From a virus: DNA of 29,332 nt. The translations under genes and the position numbers were made by a program. The notes under the pieces are model-generated. The model was not told the DNA's origin. It did no database searches and worked only from the letters and a program-made list of their open reading frames with translations. Location of the stretch: positions 1 through 29,332 of the IMG/VR virus record IMGVR_UViG_3300034072_002193. The stretch is one strand, 5' to 3'. Of the stretch, positions 4,987 through 29,138 are shown piece by piece (within the stretch, counting starts at the first letter, position 1; each line of letters opens with the position of its first letter).

Positions 4987-5448
4987 TTAGGAAGCGAGCT
5001 TCTCGACGATGCCGACGCCGGCAGAACTGGTCGTGAGCTCGAGCGTCACGGTAGCGGCGGTGATCTGGTCAACACCCCCAACCCCGACCTTGAAACTCAT
5101 GACCTGCGCAGCGAAGTAATAAATGTCGCCGTTCTGGGTCACGATCTTGAAGTAATGATCGGCATCCGAGGTCGAAGCTGACTTGAGCAGGATCTGACCG
5201 GCGTCGTCGGTGTCCAGCGCAAGCTGCAGGGTGATCGAACCTTCGTTGAACGAACCCTTCTTCTTCACGGTTCCGCGCGACGCCAGCGGGTTATGGGTCA
5301 CGAGATTATACTCGCGGCCGAATTCTCCGAGGTCGGTCACCTCGCCGATCAGCGTCGGCGTCAGAGCGTCATATCCGGTCGAATTGAACGTAGCCGGTGC
5401 GGATGCGGTGACGGCAATCGTGGTCCCCGCCGAGGTACGTGCGTTCAT
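4987..5448 (-). CDS. Major tail tube protein
   Basis: The product is 153 aa, starting at ATG 5448 with AAAGGTAA about 8 nt upstream. The protein is rich in beta-prone Thr/Val/Ser stretches. It includes a GEVTDLGEFGREYNLVTHNP segment and a C-terminal VGVGGVDQITAATVTLELTT segment. These resemble phage tail tube (phage_TTP-like) proteins of alphaproteobacterial siphophages, which polymerise as stacked hexamers around the tape measure. The gene follows the tail terminator module and precedes the chaperone pair. It is bounded on both sides by terminator-like hairpins, which fits a gene whose mRNA needs separate control or stability. Confidence 0.8.
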   Translation of the reverse strand: MNARTSAGTTIAVTASAPATFNSTGYDALTPTLIGEVTDLGEFGREYNLVTHNPLASRGTVKKKGSFNEGSITLQLALDTDDAGQILLKSASTSDADHYFKIVTQNGDIYYFAAQVMSFKVGVGGVDQITAATVTLELTTSSAGVGIVEKLAS

Positions 5449-5466
5449 GTTGGCTTACCTTTGCAC

Positions 5467-5489
5467 AAAAAAGCCCGCACTAGGCGGGC
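5467..5489 (-). terminator. Terminator-like hairpin directly upstream of the tail tube start
   Basis: Stem gcccgc (5473-5478) pairs with gcgggc (5484-5489) around a 5-nt loop. A run of six T follows on the minus strand. Only 18 nt separate the T-run from the tail tube ATG, and that space holds the ribosome binding site, so no promoter can fit between them. Confidence 0.7.
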
Positions 5490-5513
5490 GGGTTTATTGC
5501 CGGGCTGGCGCTT

Positions 5514-5714
5514 CTATTCCGGTTTGGCCGGCTTGCTCTTTCTGGTGGCAGCTGCGTCCGCCGGATCGGCTGAGGCAGGAGCATCCTCGGGCTCTGCGTC
5601 GACAAGGCCGACAGACTGCCAGTCAGCGAACTGCCCTTCTGGGATGTCGATCCTGGCGCCCTTGTCGTGGATCACTTCGCCATGAATGAAGCTGCGTTTG
5701 ACAATTGCTTTCAT
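5514..5714 (-). CDS. Small phage protein of unknown function
   Basis: The product is 66 aa from the ATG at 5714; an alternative ATG at 5717 would add one Met. AGGTGAG lies immediately upstream and spaces better for 5714. It begins MKAIVKRSFIHGEVIHDKGA, with a basic, possibly beta-structured N-terminus. The tail is acidic and Ala/Pro-rich (DAEPEDAPASADPADAAA). Its position between the DUF3168 protein and the tail tube suggests a minor head-tail or tail accessory role. I do not recognise a family. Confidence 0.65.
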   Translation of the reverse strand: MKAIVKRSFIHGEVIHDKGARIDIPEGQFADWQSVGLVDAEPEDAPASADPADAAATRKSKPAKPE

Positions 5715-6121
5715 CATCTCACCTCGTTGTAGCTAACTCGGAAATCTCGGCTCCCGATGAACAGCGATGCGCTCGCATCGGTGAAATCCGGGCCAGCACC
5801 ATCGCTGTGCACCACCACAGCGGTGACATCGTCGATCACGGGCAACTGGTCAGCGCACGCACGCTTGAAGGCCTTCTGCACCTCTTTGAGGCTCGGATAG
5901 GTTGCGGCCACGACTGTCGCCTGCACCCGCTCGGTCACGCGTCGTCTTGCGCCGGGAGCAAGAATGTTGCGATCGACGCTCGAAACCGATTGGAGTGAGA
6001 CATACGGCAGCGGAGTGCCCTGCGGAAATATTCCGCCTGCGATCCTTGTTGCGGGGACGAGCAGGACCAAGTCAGGATTCGCAATCGCCAGCGCTCTGAC
6101 AATTTGCACGCCATCACTCAT
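5714..6121 (-). CDS. Tail terminator / tail completion protein, DUF3168-like
   Basis: The product is about 135 aa from the ATG at 6121 (MSDGVQIVRALAIANPDLVL). This start overlaps the upstream gene end by 8 nt; an extension to 6139 is possible but overlaps more. The features AGGIFPQGTPLPYVSLQSVS and a C-terminal SRDFRVSYNE fit the DUF3168 (gp17-like) family. That family caps the tail tube at the head-proximal end. Gene order (gp10-like protein, this gene, tail tube) is the standard siphophage order. The stop codon touches the start region of the next gene. Confidence 0.8.
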   Translation of the reverse strand: MSDGVQIVRALAIANPDLVLLVPATRIAGGIFPQGTPLPYVSLQSVSSVDRNILAPGARRRVTERVQATVVAATYPSLKEVQKAFKRACADQLPVIDDVTAVVVHSDGAGPDFTDASASLFIGSRDFRVSYNEVR

Positions 6122-6770
6122 CGTCGATGTCCGCTTCAATGGTGACGGGTGCGGTGAAGCCGGTTTTGGTTTTCAGGTACTCGCGGATTCGCTCACCCAC
6201 TGCATTGACCGCCTCTGCCGCCTTGCGGTCTAATGCAGGGCGAAGAAACGGCTTGGCGGCAAAACCCGGATGCAGGACGGCGTCCCTGATGATTGTGGGG
6301 CCAATCACCAGGGCGCTCGCTTCCATGTCGGCGTCCGTCCGCTTCCCCTTGGGGCCGCTATTGTACTTGTAGCCACCAACCCGGATCAGGCCGTTTTCCT
6401 GCGTGCTGATCCCCCCGCCGCCCTGCTTTTCGTTGTTCCTGGCATGCTTGTTCAGCGTCTTTGCCGTCAGATCGGCATCACCTGCCGTAATGAGATGCGG
6501 GCTGACGCCGTACTCGAGGAACCAACCTATGAAGGAATGTTCGCCTTTCAGCTTGACCTTCACGGAAACCGTACCGTCCTGATTGACCCGCGGGCTGCTC
6601 GTCTTGATGGCCTTGGCGACCTTGCCAGTATCCTTTGCCACTGTTGCGCGGGCTTCGTCGCGAACCACGCGTGCACCAGCCACCATGCCAGCTCGCAAAG
6701 CACCCTTTTTCAGCTTCTCGGGAAACGCGTCGAGAAACTGCGATAGTTCGCGCCCACCTTTGAGCCTCAT
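6114..6770 (-). CDS. HK97 gp10-like head-tail / tail component protein
   Basis: The product is 218 aa, starting at ATG 6770, which overlaps the upstream stop as ATGA. The N-terminal LSQFLDAFPEKLKKGALRAG and following VVRDEARATVAKDTGKVAKAI match the HK97-gp10 pattern. In that pattern an amphipathic helix and a conserved Arg/Ala segment precede the core. The central FIGWFLEYGVSPHLI segment is also typical. The C-terminus KPFLRPALDRKAAEAVNAVG matches the usual end of the family. It is longer than most members (about 130-160 aa) because of an insert around residues 90-160 rich in Gly and Lys. The family acts at the head-tail junction. Confidence 0.82.
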   Translation of the reverse strand: MRLKGGRELSQFLDAFPEKLKKGALRAGMVAGARVVRDEARATVAKDTGKVAKAIKTSSPRVNQDGTVSVKVKLKGEHSFIGWFLEYGVSPHLITAGDADLTAKTLNKHARNNEKQGGGGISTQENGLIRVGGYKYNSGPKGKRTDADMEASALVIGPTIIRDAVLHPGFAAKPFLRPALDRKAAEAVNAVGERIREYLKTKTGFTAPVTIEADIDDE

Positions 6771-7665: not shown

Positions 7666-8031
7666 TCAGGCCGCCTTCCTGGCGCGGGTGGGCTTTTCAG
7701 GCTTGACCTCGGCGACAGGCATCGAAGCATCGCCAGCATCGCCAGCATCGCCAGCATCGCCAGCATCGCCAGCATCGCCAGCATCGCCAGCATCGCCAGC
7801 ATCGCCAGCATCGCCAGCATCGAGGGCAGCGAGTTCGTCTTCAGCGGCTGCTAGCTCCATCTGCTCATGCTCGGCCAGCGTGGCGGCGAAATCGTCCTTC
7901 GATTCAGCGGTGGGCACGCCATATCCCGCGCGGAAGATCCGGACGGCTTCGGCAGCATCACACACATGAACCCCGCCAACCGCAACGCTCACAGACGGCC
8001 CGGAAAGTGGCACGTTCATCTTCATATGCAT
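7666..8031 (-). CDS. Phage protein with (Asp-Ala-Gly)10 repeat, unknown function
   Basis: The product is 121 aa, starting at ATG 8031 with AAGGA about 8 nt upstream; in-frame ATGs at 8025 and 8019 are alternatives. Residues 1-70 hold an ordinary-looking domain (GGVHVCDAAEAVRIFRAGYG) with an acidic helix. Then comes a perfect tandem DAG tripeptide run encoded by a 9-bp DNA repeat. The end is a short basic tail (KPTRARKAA). It lies between the capsid and connector genes, a slot often used by small head accessory proteins. I do not recognise a family; the repeat is probably a flexible acidic linker. Confidence 0.7.
   Translation of the reverse strand: MHMKMNVPLSGPSVSVAVGGVHVCDAAEAVRIFRAGYGVPTAESKDDFAATLAEHEQMELAAAEDELAALDAGDAGDAGDAGDAGDAGDAGDAGDAGDAGDASMPVAEVKPEKPTRARKAA
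7732..7821. repeat. 9-bp tandem repeat, 10 perfect copies
   Basis: The unit gccagcatc is repeated ten times without mismatch. On the minus strand it encodes DAG repeats in frame. A 9-bp unit keeps the frame when copies are gained or lost by slippage, so the protein linker length can vary freely among relatives. Confidence 0.97.
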
Positions 8032-15667: not shown

Positions 15668-16624
15668 TTAATGCGAGGGAGGGTCTTTCTTCGACGGGCT
15701 CTGGTATGCCCAGTACTGGATGTTGTGCATCACTTCGTCATGCTCACGGGTGAACTGCTCAGCCGCTATTGCAAACGTCCGGTATCGGATAAGCCAATCC
15801 TCGTTCGGAAATAGTTTCGGATCTTCTGGCCACTCGCCTCGCAGCCGTTCGGCGGAGACGGTGCTAACCTTTTCCAACAGATCGGGCAGGTATCGATCGG
15901 CTACACCGTGGTATGCGCCAAGAAGCTTGTGCCATTTGTCTCTTGCAGTTTCCCAGTGCTTCCAGTTGTCAATTGCGACGCCCTGTTTGGGTAAAAGCAG
16001 CACCCTTTCGAAAACTGCCATCTGCTCCGCAAGTTCGCTCAGTCTCTCTCGGTCGCGAATGGCTCTGAACCCGAAGTCCACGTTTGCAAATCGGGTATTC
16101 AGGGTCTCCCGTATGCTTGCGCACATAGCCAACAACCGCTTCTCAAGATCTGATTGCGCTGTCGCGATCGCTTCGACCTTTTTGGTGATGCTGATCTGAT
16201 TGTCGACAATCAGATCGTTCAGCATCGTGATCGACTCGCCGTGCTGCTGTAGCTGAGCTTTCAAGTGAGTCAGCGCCCGAGCCTCATCTGTTGTCGGCGA
16301 CATCGATCTACCCGGCAGGCTTGCGATTTGCTTCTCTATTTCTGCGGCAATGGCTTCAAGATCAAGGTTTGCCTCATTGCTTCGATGCCACGGTAGGCGA
16401 ATGTCTTTTCCCTGCCATCCTGTGAATAGCAGGATGATGCCGGCGATCAGTGAGAGCCAACCTATCATTGCGCCCCATGGGATAGCCGTCACATCGATCG
16501 CTCCAGTTGCATTCTTTGGCAGTGGCAGTGCGTCGAGAAGCTTCCCAAGCAGCCACCCCGCTGATTGCTGCAGTAAAAAGACCACAATCAGCACAAGACC
16601 CGTAATCATCTGTTTTCTGTTCAT
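15668..16624 (-). CDS. Two-TM membrane protein with long coiled coil, unknown (possible moron)
   Basis: The product is 318 aa from ATG 16624 (MNRKQMITGLVLIVVFLLQQ), with GGAG very close upstream; a GTG at 16681 would add 19 residues. TM segments lie near residues 7-27 and 50-70. They are followed by a cytoplasmic charged coiled-coil region (about 85-215) and a helical C-terminal domain containing WETARDKWHKLLGAYHG. Codon use looks less GC-rich than the neighbouring structural genes. It is separated by a terminator from the genes downstream. Possible roles are superinfection exclusion or membrane sensing; none is proven. Confidence 0.72.
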   Translation of the reverse strand: MNRKQMITGLVLIVVFLLQQSAGWLLGKLLDALPLPKNATGAIDVTAIPWGAMIGWLSLIAGIILLFTGWQGKDIRLPWHRSNEANLDLEAIAAEIEKQIASLPGRSMSPTTDEARALTHLKAQLQQHGESITMLNDLIVDNQISITKKVEAIATAQSDLEKRLLAMCASIRETLNTRFANVDFGFRAIRDRERLSELAEQMAVFERVLLLPKQGVAIDNWKHWETARDKWHKLLGAYHGVADRYLPDLLEKVSTVSAERLRGEWPEDPKLFPNEDWLIRYRTFAIAAEQFTREHDEVMHNIQYWAYQSPSKKDPPSH

Positions 16625-16707
16625 CACTCCAATTTGCCGGAAGGCTTCCCAACTTTGGAGTCGAACTGAACTCAAATGCACAAGATTTTTAGTAATGCGC
16701 GAGCGGA

Positions 16708-17355
16708 TTAGAGCAGACCGGACTGCGCCGCCAACAGCGTGGCCTCGTCAACTTCTCTAACCGCAGACCAAAGGTGCGACGGCCAAGAGTCCAGCGCATC
16801 GCTCAGCAGCTTTCGTGCGCGGCGCACATGCATCCGGTACCGCCGCGCCACGATCGTCACGCCCACATCTTCCACGATCATCTCGAGCACGGCCGCGATC
16901 GGCAAACCGCCGAGCAACCCGGGTAACGCACGCCGCCAATTTCCATAGGCCACCTCGCGCCGCACCTGCCCCAGCGCTTCGAAGAAGCCGCCATCGCCAC
17001 GCATGGATTGATCGACCCGTGTCTCGAGGCTGACTGTCCGCACTGTCACCTCACTGCCGATCTTTTCGGCCACAGATGCAATTTCCAAGGCCGAGCCCAG
17101 CTGCTCGATGCTGATCGCACCACTGGCGTAAAGCCGCGCCAAAGCGCCCTGGCGCTTCCGGCTGGCCTTATCCCGGGTCTCGGGCGTAGCGGCCGCAGTT
17201 GCCGGGCACCGATCCAGCAAGTCTCGGCGCTCAAGGCGCAGCCGGCGTTCCTCTGCGGCCCGCGCTGGGTGGCGGCGCGCCCAGCTGCTGCGTTGCTGGT
17301 TGCGCTCGTCTGCCGCCTTGGCCTCGATCGCGCTCAACATTTTCTTCTTCGCCAC
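16708..17355 (-). CDS. Putative phage regulator, DUF6456-like
   Basis: The product is 215 aa from a GTG at 17355, preceded by GAGGGGGG with 6 nt spacing; the in-frame extension to 17469 is not needed. The N-terminus is very basic and helical. The middle (GALARLYASGAISIEQLGSA) and the C-terminal helices (VTIVARRYRMHVRRARKLLS) have a helix-turn-helix look. They recall the DUF6456 proteins of Sphingomonads. Together with the winged-helix gene upstream, it heads the leftward late block, so a role in late transcription is plausible. The family link is weak. Confidence 0.6.
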   Translation of the reverse strand: MAKKKMLSAIEAKAADERNQQRSSWARRHPARAAEERRLRLERRDLLDRCPATAAATPETRDKASRKRQGALARLYASGAISIEQLGSALEIASVAEKIGSEVTVRTVSLETRVDQSMRGDGGFFEALGQVRREVAYGNWRRALPGLLGGLPIAAVLEMIVEDVGVTIVARRYRMHVRRARKLLSDALDSWPSHLWSAVREVDEATLLAAQSGLL

Positions 17356-17734
17356 GCTGTGCCCCCCTCGATCCGCAGGGATCGTAATCGAGCAAAGGGT
17401 CATCCTGCAGGGGCCCATTTGTGACGGGCTCAACCTTGTAACCGTGCGCCTTGAGCAGGCGTACCGCATCGGTCACATCGTCAGGAATGGCCAGCCCGCG
17501 TGGTCCAGGCCGTCGCAACAGCATGCCGTCGGCCGTCAGGCTGCGCACAGCCTTTTTCACCCGGGTGCGGTTCGTATCCAGCCCGGCCGCGATTTCGCCG
17601 TAGCTCGGCGATGCGCCCCAGTGGCTAAGGTAGGATCGGACGAAGCGGAGGACCAGGAGCCGCAGGCTTGCCATCGATGGCGTAAGCTTGGTGGGGAAAT
17701 GCGGCGTTTCGTTCAGCTTTTCAACGCCCTGCAT
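17231..17734 (-). CDS. Winged-helix DNA-binding protein
   Basis: The product is 167 aa from ATG 17734; no strong ribosome site is seen, and ATG 17674 is an alternative start. A winged-helix/LexA-like domain runs from about residue 20 to 85. It includes HWGASPSYGEIAAGLDTNRT for helices one to three and GMLLRRPGPRGLAIPD for the wing. The last 40 residues are low-complexity (Gln/Ala/Pro/Arg) and overlap the next gene by about 125 bases in another frame. It is the first gene of the late leftward block, which suggests a transcription regulator. Confidence 0.68.
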   Translation of the reverse strand: MQGVEKLNETPHFPTKLTPSMASLRLLVLRFVRSYLSHWGASPSYGEIAAGLDTNRTRVKKAVRSLTADGMLLRRPGPRGLAIPDDVTDAVRLLKAHGYKVEPVTNGPLQDDPLLDYDPCGSRGAQRGEEENVERDRGQGGRRAQPATQQLGAPPPSAGRRGTPAAP

Positions 17735-17802: not shown

Positions 17803-17991
17803 ATGGTCATGAAATTCAAGCGCCGGTTAGCATGGTGGCTCGTGGCGAGAGCTGGCAAGCTCTATCCAAAGCTCTACCGTGAGCTGGTGGACATGGCCGT
17901 TGCCGCACTGAACAATGCTTTTGACGATCACGGCGCAGATGGCATGTTATTGAGATCAGCCGCGGACCCCCATAAGAATTCGTCCGGCTGA
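17803..17991 (+). CDS. Doubtful small basic protein on the opposite strand
   Basis: The product is about 62 aa from ATG 17803 (MVMKFKRRLAWWLVARAGKL); a GTG at 17785 or ATG at 17809 is also possible. The first half is a basic amphipathic or membrane-interacting helix; the second is helical (LYRELVDMAVAALNNAFDDH). It is the only plus-strand candidate left of 21 kb. It lies divergent to the winged-helix gene and convergent with the DUF2806 gene, overlapping its 3' end by about 64 bases. The ribosome site is weak. The protein-like composition argues for reality, the position against it. Confidence 0.4.
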   Translation: MVMKFKRRLAWWLVARAGKLYPKLYRELVDMAVAALNNAFDDHGADGMLLRSAADPHKNSSG

Positions 17992-18965
17992 AGCGCGAAG
18001 CCAAACCTCCGGCCAACAAAGGCGAAACATCCCGGTCCGTGCGGCACGCGCTGCTTCAGATGGCCCACGACCCTACGAAGCAAGGCCTTTTCGTCACTGA
18101 CGGGCAAAAGCGCCAACAGTTCTTTTCCTGAGTTCGTAAGCTGTATGATTTGCAATTCGAGGTTTGTGGCACCTTCAGGTGAATATATCAAAGCACCATA
18201 TTCCGCGCCAAACACGAAATAGCGCCCGTGGTCGTCACGCGGGATCGGCCTTCTGGACGTACCTGCAACCTCACTGGTGATCCCCCAATCGCGCATTGCT
18301 ACGCTTCTCAAATAGAGATGCCCCGAATTCCATCGATCAATGGAATCTACGAACAATATCTCACGGTTGAGGCAATCTTCTGCCGCTTCTTGAAACATCA
18401 CCGCGACAGCCGGGTCCATTTCAGAAACCAGCCTGAGGGTCCTGTATGAGAACGAACCGGGTTTTCTGATCTCACCAGCCAAAATGCGGGCCCATACCCG
18501 CTGCATCTGAGGTTCAGACACATCCTGCGCAAAGGTGGTAAACTTCCGTTGCCAATCTTCGTCGATGTCTTCTTCCGGGGGTGCCTCGGGCTCGCCTTGC
18601 CCTACATCGGCATTGCTGTGATCGACCAGCAACCTGAGCTCCTCGGCGCTTTTCTCGCATATACTCTCGAGCCGCTCTTGCCTCCCGAACTCCTGCTCGT
18701 AATAACGCTGCTCAAAGCGAGCGACCATGGCAGGGTCCTTTGACCACTTCTCCGCCACCGCACCCACCATGGCACGGTTCAATTCGCTGGCCCCATGTGC
18801 GCGATCGATTTCGGCTGAGACTTGCCGCATCCTCTCCGGCGAAACAACAGTACCGATAATCCGGCTCAGCGCCTTTGCCGTTTTGGCCCACCAAGGAAGG
18901 GGAAGCCCGTCGATCGCGCGATTGACAGCCTGCGGGAGATTTTCCGGAGTGTTCGAGTTGCTCAT
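17928..18965 (-). CDS. DUF2806-family protein
   Basis: The product is 345 aa from ATG 18965, with AGGA about 5 nt upstream; the extension to 19013 overlaps the previous gene and is rejected. The diagnostic stretch lies at about residues 135-185: an acidic lead-in, DEDWQRKFTTFAQDVSEPQM, then VWARILAGEIRKPGSFSYRT. This matches DUF2806 proteins found in prophages and islands. The C-terminal half ends with a compact GCFAFVGRRFGFAL segment. It is last in a run with the TM2 and three-TM genes. Function is unknown. Confidence 0.75.
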   Translation of the reverse strand: MSNSNTPENLPQAVNRAIDGLPLPWWAKTAKALSRIIGTVVSPERMRQVSAEIDRAHGASELNRAMVGAVAEKWSKDPAMVARFEQRYYEQEFGRQERLESICEKSAEELRLLVDHSNADVGQGEPEAPPEEDIDEDWQRKFTTFAQDVSEPQMQRVWARILAGEIRKPGSFSYRTLRLVSEMDPAVAVMFQEAAEDCLNREILFVDSIDRWNSGHLYLRSVAMRDWGITSEVAGTSRRPIPRDDHGRYFVFGAEYGALIYSPEGATNLELQIIQLTNSGKELLALLPVSDEKALLRRVVGHLKQRVPHGPGCFAFVGRRFGFALQPDEFLWGSAADLNNMPSAP

Positions 18966-18990
18966 GCTTTCCTGTCTCTTGCCACCGGGA

Positions 18991-19395
18991 TCAAGGGCGC
19001 CCTCGCAGCTCATCGATGATGTGCCCGGTGCACGCCATGATCACGCCCGCAACGAACAGGCCGATGCCCACTTCGTGCATCATGCCGCGCTGGCCCACGG
19101 CATCGATGTTGGCGATATCGCTGTAGAGGCTGACATCGCTCATCCACGAATAGCCTGCGATCACCATGCCCACGACTATGAACATCAGCCCGGTCCCGCC
19201 TAGCGAGCTCGGCTGCTTGCCCGCTTGCGGCGCCGGCGCTTCGGGCTTCGCCACCTCCGTCGGGCCTTCCGGCGGCGCGCTGTTCGGCTCAGCGGCCAAC
19301 GTGTCGATCGCCACTTCCTGTTGCGGTGTGGACTTGCTCATGATGCTTGCCACAAGGACCACCACCAACAGGATGGCAACGATTTCCCAGCTCAT
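18991..19395 (-). CDS. Three-TM membrane protein, unknown
   Basis: The product is 134 aa from ATG 19395, overlapping the TM2 gene stop as ATGA. It has a TM segment at residues 3-20 (IVAILLVVVLVASIM), a Pro/Glu-rich linker, a second TM (GLMFIVVGMVIAGYSW) and a third (VGIGLFVAGVIMACTGHIID). Coupling to the TM2 gene suggests the two products act together at the membrane. No family is recognised. Confidence 0.7.
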   Translation of the reverse strand: MSWEIVAILLVVVLVASIMSKSTPQQEVAIDTLAAEPNSAPPEGPTEVAKPEAPAPQAGKQPSSLGGTGLMFIVVGMVIAGYSWMSDVSLYSDIANIDAVGQRGMMHEVGIGLFVAGVIMACTGHIIDELRGRP

Positions 19396-19703
19396 GCCGC
19401 TGCCGCGCCCGGCTGCTCTGCGGCCTCGCCGCTTGCCAGTATCTGCACGATCAGCTTCTGGCGGATTTCGTCACGGCGCGCCCTGATCATGCCGGAAAGC
19501 AGGAACAGGTCGATGAACGCCCAGATGAAGAACCCGCCGAACGTCAGCAGCTGGACAATCGCCGATCCCGTGCGGCCAAGGTAGAACCGATGCCCGCCAA
19601 GGAACCACGTGAAGAAATACAGCAGCCAAGCAACCCCGGCGCTCGGCCCTTCATTGGTCACACGCTGTTCGATCAGCATCAGTTGGCTAGCGGAAAGGGC
19701 CAT
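19392..19703 (-). CDS. TM2-domain membrane protein
   Basis: The product is 103 aa from ATG 19703, with AAGGA 6 nt upstream. A TM2 domain is visible at about residues 25-70. The first TM has WLLYFFTWFLGGHRFYLGRT, with the family GGHRFYLG turn, and a second TM (LLTFGGFFIWAFIDLFLL) follows. The C-terminal helix is charged (IRARRDEIRQKLI) and cytoplasmic. TM2 proteins are common in bacteria and phages, with unclear roles. It starts the three-gene run to the DUF2806 gene. Confidence 0.85.
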   Translation of the reverse strand: MALSASQLMLIEQRVTNEGPSAGVAWLLYFFTWFLGGHRFYLGRTGSAIVQLLTFGGFFIWAFIDLFLLSGMIRARRDEIRQKLIVQILASGEAAEQPGAAAA

Positions 19704-19774
19704 GAATAATCCTTGGTTGCAAAATGAAATTGGGAAGGCTGCTGGGCTGTCGTCGTGACGTGAGCCTATTGTTG

Positions 19775-20590
19775 CTACCGCTTCTGGTACTGACGCTCAC
19801 CCAATGGTGTGCCATCCATAGAAACCTCCAGCGCGATATCCTGATAGCCCTTCGGATTGTCGCGGATCGACAGGATGCTTGCTGTGCAGCCCTGCCCCTC
19901 GCCTACGATCGAGCCGTAAAGCCAGCTGTCTTGCGCCAGATATCCCAAGGCCTGCCCGGACGCGTCGGTCACCAGGATTGCGTGGGGATCAAACGGATTG
20001 CCCTTTTCCCGAACAATGCGAACCGGATCGCCCGGGCGAACTTTGGCAATGGCATCCATGTAGTGCTGCTCGCCGACTACGCCGCAGGGGTAGTTGCCCG
20101 GTGCAGGCTCATTGGCATAGCGACTTGTCTTCTTTCTGCGACGCGCCGGTTTGACGGTGACACTGCTTTCATCGGGTAGGCGACCAAGAGTGGCCACGAC
20201 GTGATCGATCCCGATCATTCCCGTCAACTCGACAAGTTTGTCGAGCGTCAGTTCCATGTCCCGCGCTCGGAAACTCTCCCGGAACTTCTCTGCAAGATCG
20301 GCGAACCCTGCCTCGAAATCGCTCAACGGCGCTTCGATCTTCTTGGGGGAATAGCCCATATCAAGGGCGAGCTTCCGAACATGCGCCACGGCCACAGATG
20401 CTTGTGTCGCCAATGAAGGTTCATGGGATTCAGGCGGGGCAAAATTGGATTGAGACTGAGCTTTGGGCCGTTGCCCCGAATTCTCGACGCCAGATTTGCC
20501 GGGTGCACTAACCGAAGGCGAACCGAAAGTGAAAGGCTGCTCTGAAACTACTGGCGGCCCAGAGAAAATGCTCCGGAGAAACTTCAACAT
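19775..20590 (-). CDS. HIRAN-domain protein
   Basis: The product is 271 aa from ATG 20590, with GGGGG 6 nt upstream; a GTG three bases earlier is possible. The N-terminal 60 residues are Ser/Pro-rich. A helical region (about 60-140) follows, then a basic linker (KPARRRKKTSRYA). The HIRAN domain lies at about residues 167-245: GVVGEQHYMDAI, GDPVRIVREKGNPFDPHAIL, and GQALGYLAQDS. HIRAN domains bind DNA ends at damaged or stalled forks (HLTF, Rad5). Stand-alone phage versions have no assigned role. It follows CI on the same strand, so it may be expressed in the lysogen. Confidence 0.85.
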   Translation of the reverse strand: MLKFLRSIFSGPPVVSEQPFTFGSPSVSAPGKSGVENSGQRPKAQSQSNFAPPESHEPSLATQASVAVAHVRKLALDMGYSPKKIEAPLSDFEAGFADLAEKFRESFRARDMELTLDKLVELTGMIGIDHVVATLGRLPDESSVTVKPARRRKKTSRYANEPAPGNYPCGVVGEQHYMDAIAKVRPGDPVRIVREKGNPFDPHAILVTDASGQALGYLAQDSWLYGSIVGEGQGCTASILSIRDNPKGYQDIALEVSMDGTPLGERQYQKR

Positions 20591-20680
20591 CACCAGCCCC
20601 CTGTCGATAAAATGCCGGATTAAGGCGTTGAACTATTTCCGGTCGGTGCGCTGGATCACATTATGCGGTTTGACAGTGTG

Positions 20681-21097
20681 TTAGCCGCCGCCGAATGATG
20701 GGCGACTATCATGCACGGTTTCGCTGAGTGCAGCTTCACGGCTCCGCTTTCGCATAGTTGGTTCAGGACACACCCCGGCCAGTGACCGAGCGAGCTGGAT
20801 TAGAGCCGCTCGATCTTTCGACTGTATCAGGCGCAAGCAATCGACCAACCCGCGCTCTTCAGCTGTCAGTTCCGGCTCATCGGGCAATTGCGATGTGGGA
20901 TCGTCTGTCTCGCCCGAAAGGTAGGCAGGAGTCGTGCCCAGCTCTCGTGCCACCTTGTGAAGATGTACCGACCCAGTTTTATTCTGATGGATCAGCCCAA
21001 AGATCGTAGGCTGCTTCACGCCCACGCGACGTGCCAATTCAGCCTGCGTGAGGCCTAAATCGCTCATCAGCGCGGCAATGCGATCGCCTCTGACCAT
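20681..21097 (-). CDS. CI-like phage repressor (XRE-type HTH, no peptidase domain)
   Basis: The product is 138 aa from ATG 21097. The HTH spans about residues 3-60: GDRIAALMSDLGLTQAELAR, VGVKQPTIFGLIHQNK, then HKVARELGTTPAYLSGETDD, as in CI/XRE proteins. The second half is helical and lacks the S24 Ser-Lys peptidase of LexA-type repressors. RecA-driven self-cleavage is therefore not expected; induction may use an antirepressor. No ribosome site precedes the ATG, and an AT-rich -10-like TATTAAT lies just upstream, so the mRNA may be leaderless. It is divergent from the Cro-like gene. Confidence 0.88.
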   Translation of the reverse strand: MVRGDRIAALMSDLGLTQAELARRVGVKQPTIFGLIHQNKTGSVHLHKVARELGTTPAYLSGETDDPTSQLPDEPELTAEERGLVDCLRLIQSKDRAALIQLARSLAGVCPEPTMRKRSREAALSETVHDSRPSFGGG

Positions 21098-21181
21098 GAT
21101 GCTAATTAATAGGCTCGGCTATTAAGAGCGATAAATGCTGCCCTATTGACTCTGCAATAAGGATGCCTATTGATAGGCGCC
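21098..21181. promoter_or_regulatory. CI/Cro operator-promoter region
   Basis: This 84-bp divergent region carries repeated CTATTRA sites. They lie at 21119-21125, 21143-21149 and 21167-21173, exactly 24 bp apart, plus one in reverse at 21112-21106. The last forms a near-palindrome gcctattgataggc (21165-21178). A rightward -35 candidate TTGACT (21146-21151) is followed 16 nt later by TATTGA (21168-21173). That would start transcription at or next to the Cro-like ATG. The sites overlap both putative -10 elements, which fits repression in both directions. Confidence 0.7.
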
Positions 21182-27509: not shown

Positions 27510-28062
27510 CCTGCCTCTTACCGTTATCGCACCAACCATCGGCCCACTACTTGCTGGTGAGGTAACCCGATTGCGTCGGCCACACGGTCGGCTTTCGACA
27601 TTGAAGCCGGGTGACCGCTTGTGGATTCGCGAGCAGTTCTTTTTGGCCGAATCGTTCGAGCACGTATCGCCAACGCAGGCTCTCGAACGTGGCGCAGCGC
27701 CAGTGTTCGCTGCCGATCGCGCCGATCTCCCTGACTGGGCCGTCGCTGATCTCGGCCGCCGTCGTTTCGCGCGGGAAATGCCCAAACTATGGCACCGTGC
27801 GCATCTGGTCGTGACCCACATTGCGCTCGAGCGCCTTCACGATACGCCCGCCGACGAATGGGCCAAGCAGGGCTTCTCCTCAATCGAGCACTACGCCGCA
27901 GGCTGGGATACCGGCCTGACATTGAACCAAGGCGGCCGGAACAAAACTTGCCCCCTGCGCTGGCAGTCGAACCCGGCAGTGATCGCCTTCAGCTTCGTCT
28001 TCGTGCCCAGCCCCCTCCCTGATTCCAGTCAGCCAACTTCACAGCACAGGAGCATTGCGTAA
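27502..28062 (+). CDS. Second ASCH-like phage protein
   Basis: The product is 186 aa from ATG 27502 (8-base overlap, same ATGGCTGA junction as the preceding gene). The family pattern repeats: LLAGEVTRLRRPHGRLSTLK, PGDRLWIREQFFLAESFE, HLVVTHIALERLHDTPADEW, AKQGFSSIEHYAAGWDTG and NPAVIAFSFVFV. It is diverged from the other copy and lacks its C-terminal tail. The two could be paralogues with different substrates. Confidence 0.78.
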   Translation: MADLPLTVIAPTIGPLLAGEVTRLRRPHGRLSTLKPGDRLWIREQFFLAESFEHVSPTQALERGAAPVFAADRADLPDWAVADLGRRRFAREMPKLWHRAHLVVTHIALERLHDTPADEWAKQGFSSIEHYAAGWDTGLTLNQGGRNKTCPLRWQSNPAVIAFSFVFVPSPLPDSSQPTSQHRSIA

Positions 28063-29138
28063 TGACCCGTTCTGCCGCTTCCTCCGCCAAATCGTCCTCT
28101 TTGCCTTTCCAGCGCGTCTCGAAAGGTCCGCAGGTCGGGGCTCCGCCCAGCCTCGAACAGGTTCCGGTCGATCGGCTGAACGTCGACGATTCGTACCAGC
28201 GCGCAACGGATAGCCCCGGCTCCCGCGCGATCATCGTCCGCATGATCAAACAATGGGACTGGTCGCTATGCCAGCCTCTTGTTGTTGCGCGTCGTTCTGA
28301 CGGCACACTTTGGATCCTCGATGGGCAACACCGCCACGCCGGCGCAGTCGAACGCGGTGACATTTCGTTCCTGCCCTGCGTGATCCTTTCGACGCTCGAT
28401 CGCGAAGGGGAAGCTCGCACTTTCGTGAAGCTCAATACCGAACAGCAGAAGCTCAACCAGGCCGAGATCTTCCACGGCATGCTCGCTGCAGGCGATCCGG
28501 ATGCCAAGCAGGTGCAGCAGCTGCTCGATGATGCCGGATGGCGCGTCGTACGCTCGAGCGGAACCGACAATTGGAAGCCTGGCGATCTTCAGTGTGCACC
28601 GATGCTGGTAAAGGCTCTGAAGCTGAAGGGCGCAGGTCCTGTCCAGTTCGCTCTCACATCACTTCGCGCAGCCTATGCCGACTTAGCGGTTCGCCAGTCG
28701 GCAACCCTGTTGAAGGCTCTTTTTGATGTCTTCGAGATGATTGGTGACGCCGGCGTATCCGTAAACGCTCTGGTCAAGGCAATCTCTTCCATCTCTCCGG
28801 AGGCGTGGCCTGTGCGCGGCGTAGCGCTTCAGGAGCGCCACCCGAACCTTTCGGCGACCAACGCAATCGCGCGGGCCATGATGCGAGAAGCCAAGCCGAC
28901 AGTCGCGGCGTCGACGAGTGCCACAACACGGGCGAAACCTGCGCCCATCGCTGCGCGAACGGCACCGCCAGCTCCGCCGAAATCGGTGGCGTCCACGAAG
29001 GCACCCGCGCCCGATGGGCCAGTCTTCGGCGCGGCCGGCAAGGGCTGGTGCTCGCAATGCGAGCAGCTCGTATCTCGCGACAAGGCGGCTGCATGTCGCT
29101 CGGCGTTCTGTCGCATGCAAGGGGCCGCAGCCGCATGA
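28062..29138 (+). CDS. ParB-like (DUF6551-type) protein
   Basis: The product is 358 aa from ATG 28062, with CAGGAG 9 nt upstream and a TAATG junction. A ParB-like N-terminal domain shows LEQVPVDRLNVDDSYQR (about 31-47), PLVVARRSDGTLWILDGQHR (about 72-91) and FVKLNTEQQKLNQAEIFHGM. The DGQHR motif corresponds to the ParB box. A helical middle follows, then a Pro/Ala-rich linker (about 285-325). The final Cys-rich knuckle (WCSQCEQLV, ACRSAFC) may bind zinc. Proteins of this type occur widely in phages; a role in partition or nuclease function is unproven. Confidence 0.82.
   Translation: MTRSAASSAKSSSLPFQRVSKGPQVGAPPSLEQVPVDRLNVDDSYQRATDSPGSRAIIVRMIKQWDWSLCQPLVVARRSDGTLWILDGQHRHAGAVERGDISFLPCVILSTLDREGEARTFVKLNTEQQKLNQAEIFHGMLAAGDPDAKQVQQLLDDAGWRVVRSSGTDNWKPGDLQCAPMLVKALKLKGAGPVQFALTSLRAAYADLAVRQSATLLKALFDVFEMIGDAGVSVNALVKAISSISPEAWPVRGVALQERHPNLSATNAIARAMMREAKPTVAASTSATTRAKPAPIAARTAPPAPPKSVASTKAPAPDGPVFGAAGKGWCSQCEQLVSRDKAAACRSAFCRMQGAAAA

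Follow-up and report, generated by a model that had tools for sequence, protein, structure and literature searches.

A block of four genes beside the repressor gene of the virus record IMGVR_UViG_3300034072_002193 (IMG/VR, positions 1-29,332; this whole stretch of 29,332 bases is referred to here as the window) is the present content of a highly variable cargo slot bounded by cI and a pair of HTH genes. The best reading of this block is that it represents a new instance of a known prophage defence hotspot, with a predicted anti-phage role. As judged from sequence comparison, it probably helps the dormant phage to shield its host from other phages, because sister slots hold known anti-phage systems and the DUF2806 protein of the block appears distantly related to a proven abortive-infection (Abi) protein. 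In full, the explanation that we favour, and hold with fair confidence, is that the slot is a cargo hotspot of sphingomonad temperate phages whose content protects the lysogen, with the DUF2806 protein as the likeliest effector and a HIRAN-membrane pairing as a second element.

Organization of the window

The window is divided by a CI/Cro switch, with the late genes leftward and the early genes rightward. The CI-type repressor (20681-21097, minus strand; HTH_3, 3.8e-6) is conserved in relatives and forms the right anchor of the slot. Between CI and Cro, the operator region (21098-21178) contains repeated CCTATT/AATAGG half-sites that make up three operator-like sites (21106-21178), as in a lambdoid-type switch. 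The left anchor is the HTH gene pair (17231-17734 and 16708-17469, overall 16708-17734, minus strand).

The cargo block between these anchors measures ~2.9 kb and consists of four intact ORFs, all on the minus strand, which is also that of CI. Nearest to CI, at a distance of 87 nt, is the gene for a HIRAN protein of 272 aa (19775-20593, with a start at GTG 20593 or ATG 20590), composed of a unique N-terminal part of ~160 aa and a C-terminal HIRAN domain. After a gap of 71 nt follows a TM2-domain membrane protein of 103 aa (19392-19703), and then a three-TM protein of 134 aa (18991-19395), which belongs to a small new membrane-protein family. The last gene encodes a DUF2806 protein of 345 aa (17928-18965), a probable Abi-alpha-like abortive-infection effector by its sequence; its mechanical ORF begins at 19013 and the ATG at 18965 fits a 25-nt gap after the three-TM gene. 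The tight linkage of the last three genes that the first-pass annotation had described is confirmed by this gap and by the ATGA overlap of the TM2 and three-TM genes at 19392-19395. The same annotation had set the four genes on the CI strand between the repressor and the late block; their position, strand and spacing are as described, but the HTH pair separates them from the late genes.

Three further features of the window lie outside the slot. At 15668-16681 (minus strand), DNA of low GC content (0.54) encodes a protein for which two membrane helices are predicted and to which none of the 132 terminase loci described below has a homolog. About a dozen tandem copies of the 9-nt unit ATCGCCAGC at 7722-7828, inside a minus-strand ORF (7666-8031), encode a Gly-Asp-Ala repeat, and the right end (28062-29138, plus strand) carries a DGQHR-domain protein whose match (1.7e-7) falls below the cut-off of 58.85 bits.

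The slot in related phages

Relatives were gathered with the large terminase as query, which yielded 80 viral and 52 genome loci, the closest of them from Sphingomonadales; searches of viral contigs with single proteins (HIRAN, DUF2806 and an alignment of three-TM proteins) gave no match, the terminase query being productive instead. After removal of duplicates, 39 loci with both anchors were retained, in eight of which the right-hand anchor is CII or Cro instead of CI. The backbone common to the relatives runs from CII-like and YdaS/Cro genes on one strand through CI, a variable stretch, the HTH pair and HNH to the small and large terminase. The HTH pair is kept in most relatives (44 and 61 tblastn matches among their loci) and anchors the slot on its left side, not being cargo itself. 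The distance from the HTH pair to HNH also varies among relatives (1.1-3.3 kb), which hints at a second small slot for cargo.

Among these 39 distinct Sphingomonadales relatives, the length of the slot between the anchors ranges from 0.19 kb, in a locus without any cargo (L049), to 6.3 kb, with a median of 2.8 kb where CI is the anchor. Together with the four genes of the window, the 192 ORFs found in the slots of relatives fall into 127 families, of which 96 are singletons, the small slot genes being approximate since gene calls were made by a simple codon-usage script. Turnover of this content is high: 78% of prophage pairs have no cargo family in common, and the window has exactly one family in common with each of eight relatives.

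Defence genes in sister slots

Two sister prophages carry a complete RosmerTA system in the same slot, one with matches of 9.6e-43 to RmrT and 2.6e-136 to RmrA (L003) and the other with 1.6e-84 and 7.8e-174 (L062); this system is absent from the window. Other slots contain a TIR protein (L027, 4.2e-8) and an Ltp-family lipoprotein of the superinfection-exclusion type (L089, 3.4e-28). The Ltp family takes its founding member from a Streptococcus thermophilus phage, where it serves as a superinfection-exclusion protein. WYL and TerB-WYL proteins are also found among the sister cargo, as are toxin-antitoxin families of the HigA, HicB and HI1419/HI1420 types and SNase domains. When 99 cargo genes were compared with PADLOC they matched 63 families, whereas 99 randomly chosen non-cargo genes of the same phages matched four, generic and nuclease/helicase-like, with a best E of 8e-6; this contrast is qualitative, because the cargo genes were hand-picked representatives of at least ~95 aa and many of the 63 families are variants of RmrA. 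The slot shares three features with Rousset-type hotspots: it is a small locus (such hotspots measure about 1-5 kb) flanked by conserved phage genes on both sides, its turnover is high, and it has known defence systems above the phage background.

Many cargo ORFs belong to no known family. Four large slot proteins without a convincing Pfam match (L102:3367-4704, L099:5212-6024, L090:4954-5745 and L089:4137-5078) are candidates for new defence genes, and the first two of these also lack a PADLOC match.

The DUF2806 protein

The window protein matches PF10987 with 84.4 bits against a cut-off of 24.5 (1.4e-23), a match confined to profile positions 2-99 of 221, and contains the motif MQRVWARILAGEIRKPGSFS. 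DUF2806 is its sole Pfam match, and neither PHROGs nor PADLOC gave one. A family that may bear on its function is Abi-alpha (PF14337), whose member ef2833, encoded by prophage 6 of Enterococcus faecalis, causes abortive infection by premature lysis (PMC6356687); a similarity of Abi-alpha to PF10987 was remarked in that study. One DUF2806 member (L170) matched PF14337 with 28.5 bits (1.8e-6), just under the cut-off of 29, and hhalign of DUF2806 against sphingomonad Abi_alpha proteins gave an E of 9.1e-6 at a probability of 83% over 93 columns, which include the conserved LWARILAGE region. Like ef2833, the DUF2806 gene is a prophage-borne single gene, and the two resemble each other remotely at this region. 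However, the window protein belongs to another Pfam family and has no PF14337 match above the cut-off; it is not filed as Abi_alpha, because only the DUF2806 profile matched. These comparisons suggest that DUF2806 is remotely related to a proven abortive-infection protein of prophage origin.

A good AF2 model of the protein (pLDDT 80.6, pTM 0.78) found no convincing counterpart among solved structures, the best Foldseek E being 0.17. The best VIA-align match, 8yn0_D (Z 5.6, rmsd 3.6 over 79 residues), was rejected as too weak. Winged-helix regulators do, however, recur among the alignments of residues 173-289. 3H35, the PDB entry to which the Abi-alpha paper refers, is missing from the structure-match lists, which says nothing against the Abi-alpha relation. 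A match in BFVD, A0A291AUV8 (1.6e-9), carries neither name nor annotation.

Relatives of the protein are scattered among mobile elements and chromosomes. A full-length homolog occupies the same slot in one relative (L028, the same contig as L151), and others are found on IncX4 and Phaeobacter plasmids. Among 398 Sphingomonadales genomes five carry a DUF2806 gene, four as solo chromosomal genes, for some of which no defence neighbours were recognized, and one in the tail region of a prophage. One chromosomal copy (L145 7642-8256, G287) is broken by a TAG stop and is probably decaying. Of 45 viral contigs with DUF2806, 13 are P2-like loci in which the gene lies between gpA and gpQ, the P2 defence hotspot that holds old and tin (Rousset 2022, PMC9122126); a search of E. 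coli chromosomes for a close match to one of these P2-type genes found none.

This distribution bears on the strongest alternative, namely that the cargo has no defence function and comprises lysogenic-conversion morons, counter-defence genes or host-physiology genes whose insertion behind cI is tolerated. Such a reading would accommodate the solitary chromosomal copies of DUF2806, its presence on IncX4 plasmids and the many slot ORFs without a known family, and P2-type hotspots also hold partition systems and toxins (PMC9122126). It is nevertheless unlikely, given that known defence or exclusion genes recur in the same slot, that DUF2806 appears related to Abi-alpha and that it is found at the old/tin site of P2.

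The HIRAN, TM2 and three-TM proteins

The HIRAN domain (PF08797; 31.8 bits against a cut-off of 24.7, 1.3e-7) occupies the C-terminal third of its protein. Its profile matches structures of the HLTF HIRAN domain (2e-5), and the NP(F/Y)D motif is conserved between them: NPFDPHAI of the window protein aligns with NPYDKNAI of HLTF. The protein is a putative binder of DNA 3' ends. The motif NP(F/Y)DxxAI is common to HLTF, stand-alone bacterial HIRAN proteins and the window protein, which differs from them in its extra N-terminus of 160 aa without detected homologs and in having no helicase. PADLOC returned a weak match to a candidate system only (PDC-M03B, 1e-6). At least six other prophages have HIRAN homologs in this slot (L009, L012, L016, L043, L087, where there are two, and L099). 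The two HIRAN genes of L087, a Sphingopyxis prophage (5112-5543 and 5979-6308), differ from each other.

The TM2 protein matches its Pfam family above the cut-off (PF05154, 56.7 bits against 27.9, 2.7e-15). Outside the window, TM2 was not seen beside HIRAN or three-TM genes, and a literature search found nothing that connects TM2 with superinfection. The three-TM protein has no Pfam family above the cut-off, and its family is marked by a conserved C-terminal stretch, ANIDAVGQRGMMHEVGI...ACTGHIIDELR. Homologs adjoin HIRAN at two places in one other genome (L241, L242) and occur without it in three loci (L083, L243 and L244): in L083 the gene lies in the same slot beside a TerB-WYL protein, and in L244 a weakly matching gene lies behind CI and overlaps it directly. 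HIRAN and three-TM may be a real pair, the basis being the window and this single further genome, where the two copies are possibly duplicates.

The first-pass annotation had treated the four genes as one module and proposed co-occurrence as a check. DUF2806 is found without the others in four chromosomes, one prophage tail region and 45 viral contigs, which speaks against a single module, and the check yielded HIRAN and three-TM together in one other genome but the quartet nowhere else. The description of the block as lysogeny-side, defence-like cargo therefore survives in part: the block is dispensable, sister slots carry known defence and exclusion genes and DUF2806 is tied to abortive infection by remote similarity and to the P2 exclusion locus by position, but the four genes do not form one unit. 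A co-operating four-gene system, in which the HIRAN protein detects the ends of phage DNA, a membrane channel is built from TM2 and three-TM, and DUF2806 is the effector, would explain the ATGA overlap and 25-nt gap and the neighbouring HIRAN and three-TM genes elsewhere; it is improbable, as DUF2806 was not seen beside HIRAN, TM2 or three-TM outside the window and three-TM also occurs without HIRAN. A different division of the block can be offered tentatively and with considerably less confidence than the favoured explanation. Here, the DUF2806 proteins of sphingomonad prophages, P2-like prophages and IncX4 plasmids would be an unrecognized Gram-negative branch of the Abi-alpha type, and HIRAN with three-TM a separate, undescribed two-gene membrane defence module that senses DNA ends, both in one cI-linked hotspot.

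A core function for the phage itself, in tuning its replication or its switch between lysis and lysogeny, might be read from the proximity of CI/Cro and the ability of HIRAN domains to bind DNA ends. It is rejected as very improbable: L049 carries no cargo and all four genes are missing from most relatives, so that none of them is core.

Linkage to cI and a proposed mechanism

The distance from the cI stop to the start of the first cargo gene is no more than 100 nt in 21 of 30 relatives, and in seven the two genes overlap or abut; 163 of the 192 cargo ORFs of relatives lie on the cI strand. No terminator-like site was found on the coding strand of the window between CI and TM2. The closeness of the cargo to cI, the common strand and the lack of a terminator-like site suggest expression with cI in the lysogen, probably by co-transcription. 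On the opposing side, no sigma-70-like promoter was found for cI. The arrangement resembles that of lambda cI-rexA-rexB, in which accessory genes likewise follow cI directly in the same orientation and some products are membrane-bound. The cargo itself differs, HIRAN, TM2 and DUF2806 being other families than RexAB, and Pfam and PHROG scans of the window detected no Rex family.

Under the favoured explanation, the block would be transcribed in the lysogen from the repressor promoter, as lambda cI-rexAB is. The DUF2806 protein, most likely the active part, would act as an Abi-alpha-type effector of abortive infection encoded by a single gene. It would stay silent in the lysogen until an infecting phage triggers it, whereupon it may damage the membrane or advance lysis before progeny mature. 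HIRAN and three-TM, with TM2, would constitute a second and possibly independent element in which a DNA-end-sensing protein acts with a membrane partner.

Relation to known hotspots and implications

Prophage defence hotspots have been described at gpA-gpQ (old/tin) of P2 and in Vibrio between cI and integrase, the latter thus also next to cI (Rousset 2022, PMC9122126). In common with these, the sphingomonad slot is small, is bounded by two conserved phage genes, has a high turnover and holds known defence genes in sister phages. It differs in lineage (Sphingomonadales) and anchors (cI and the HTH pair), and its defence role is a predicted one. A narrow literature search brought up no description of this kind of slot in sphingomonad phages, nor of sphingomonad prophage hotspots.

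Widespread on the IncX4 plasmids of enterobacteria and in P2-like phages but without an assigned function, the DUF2806 family is now a directly testable candidate for abortive infection. The slot itself, clearly anchored by cI and the HTH pair and carried by a phage lineage that is common yet little studied, can be mined for new anti-phage systems.
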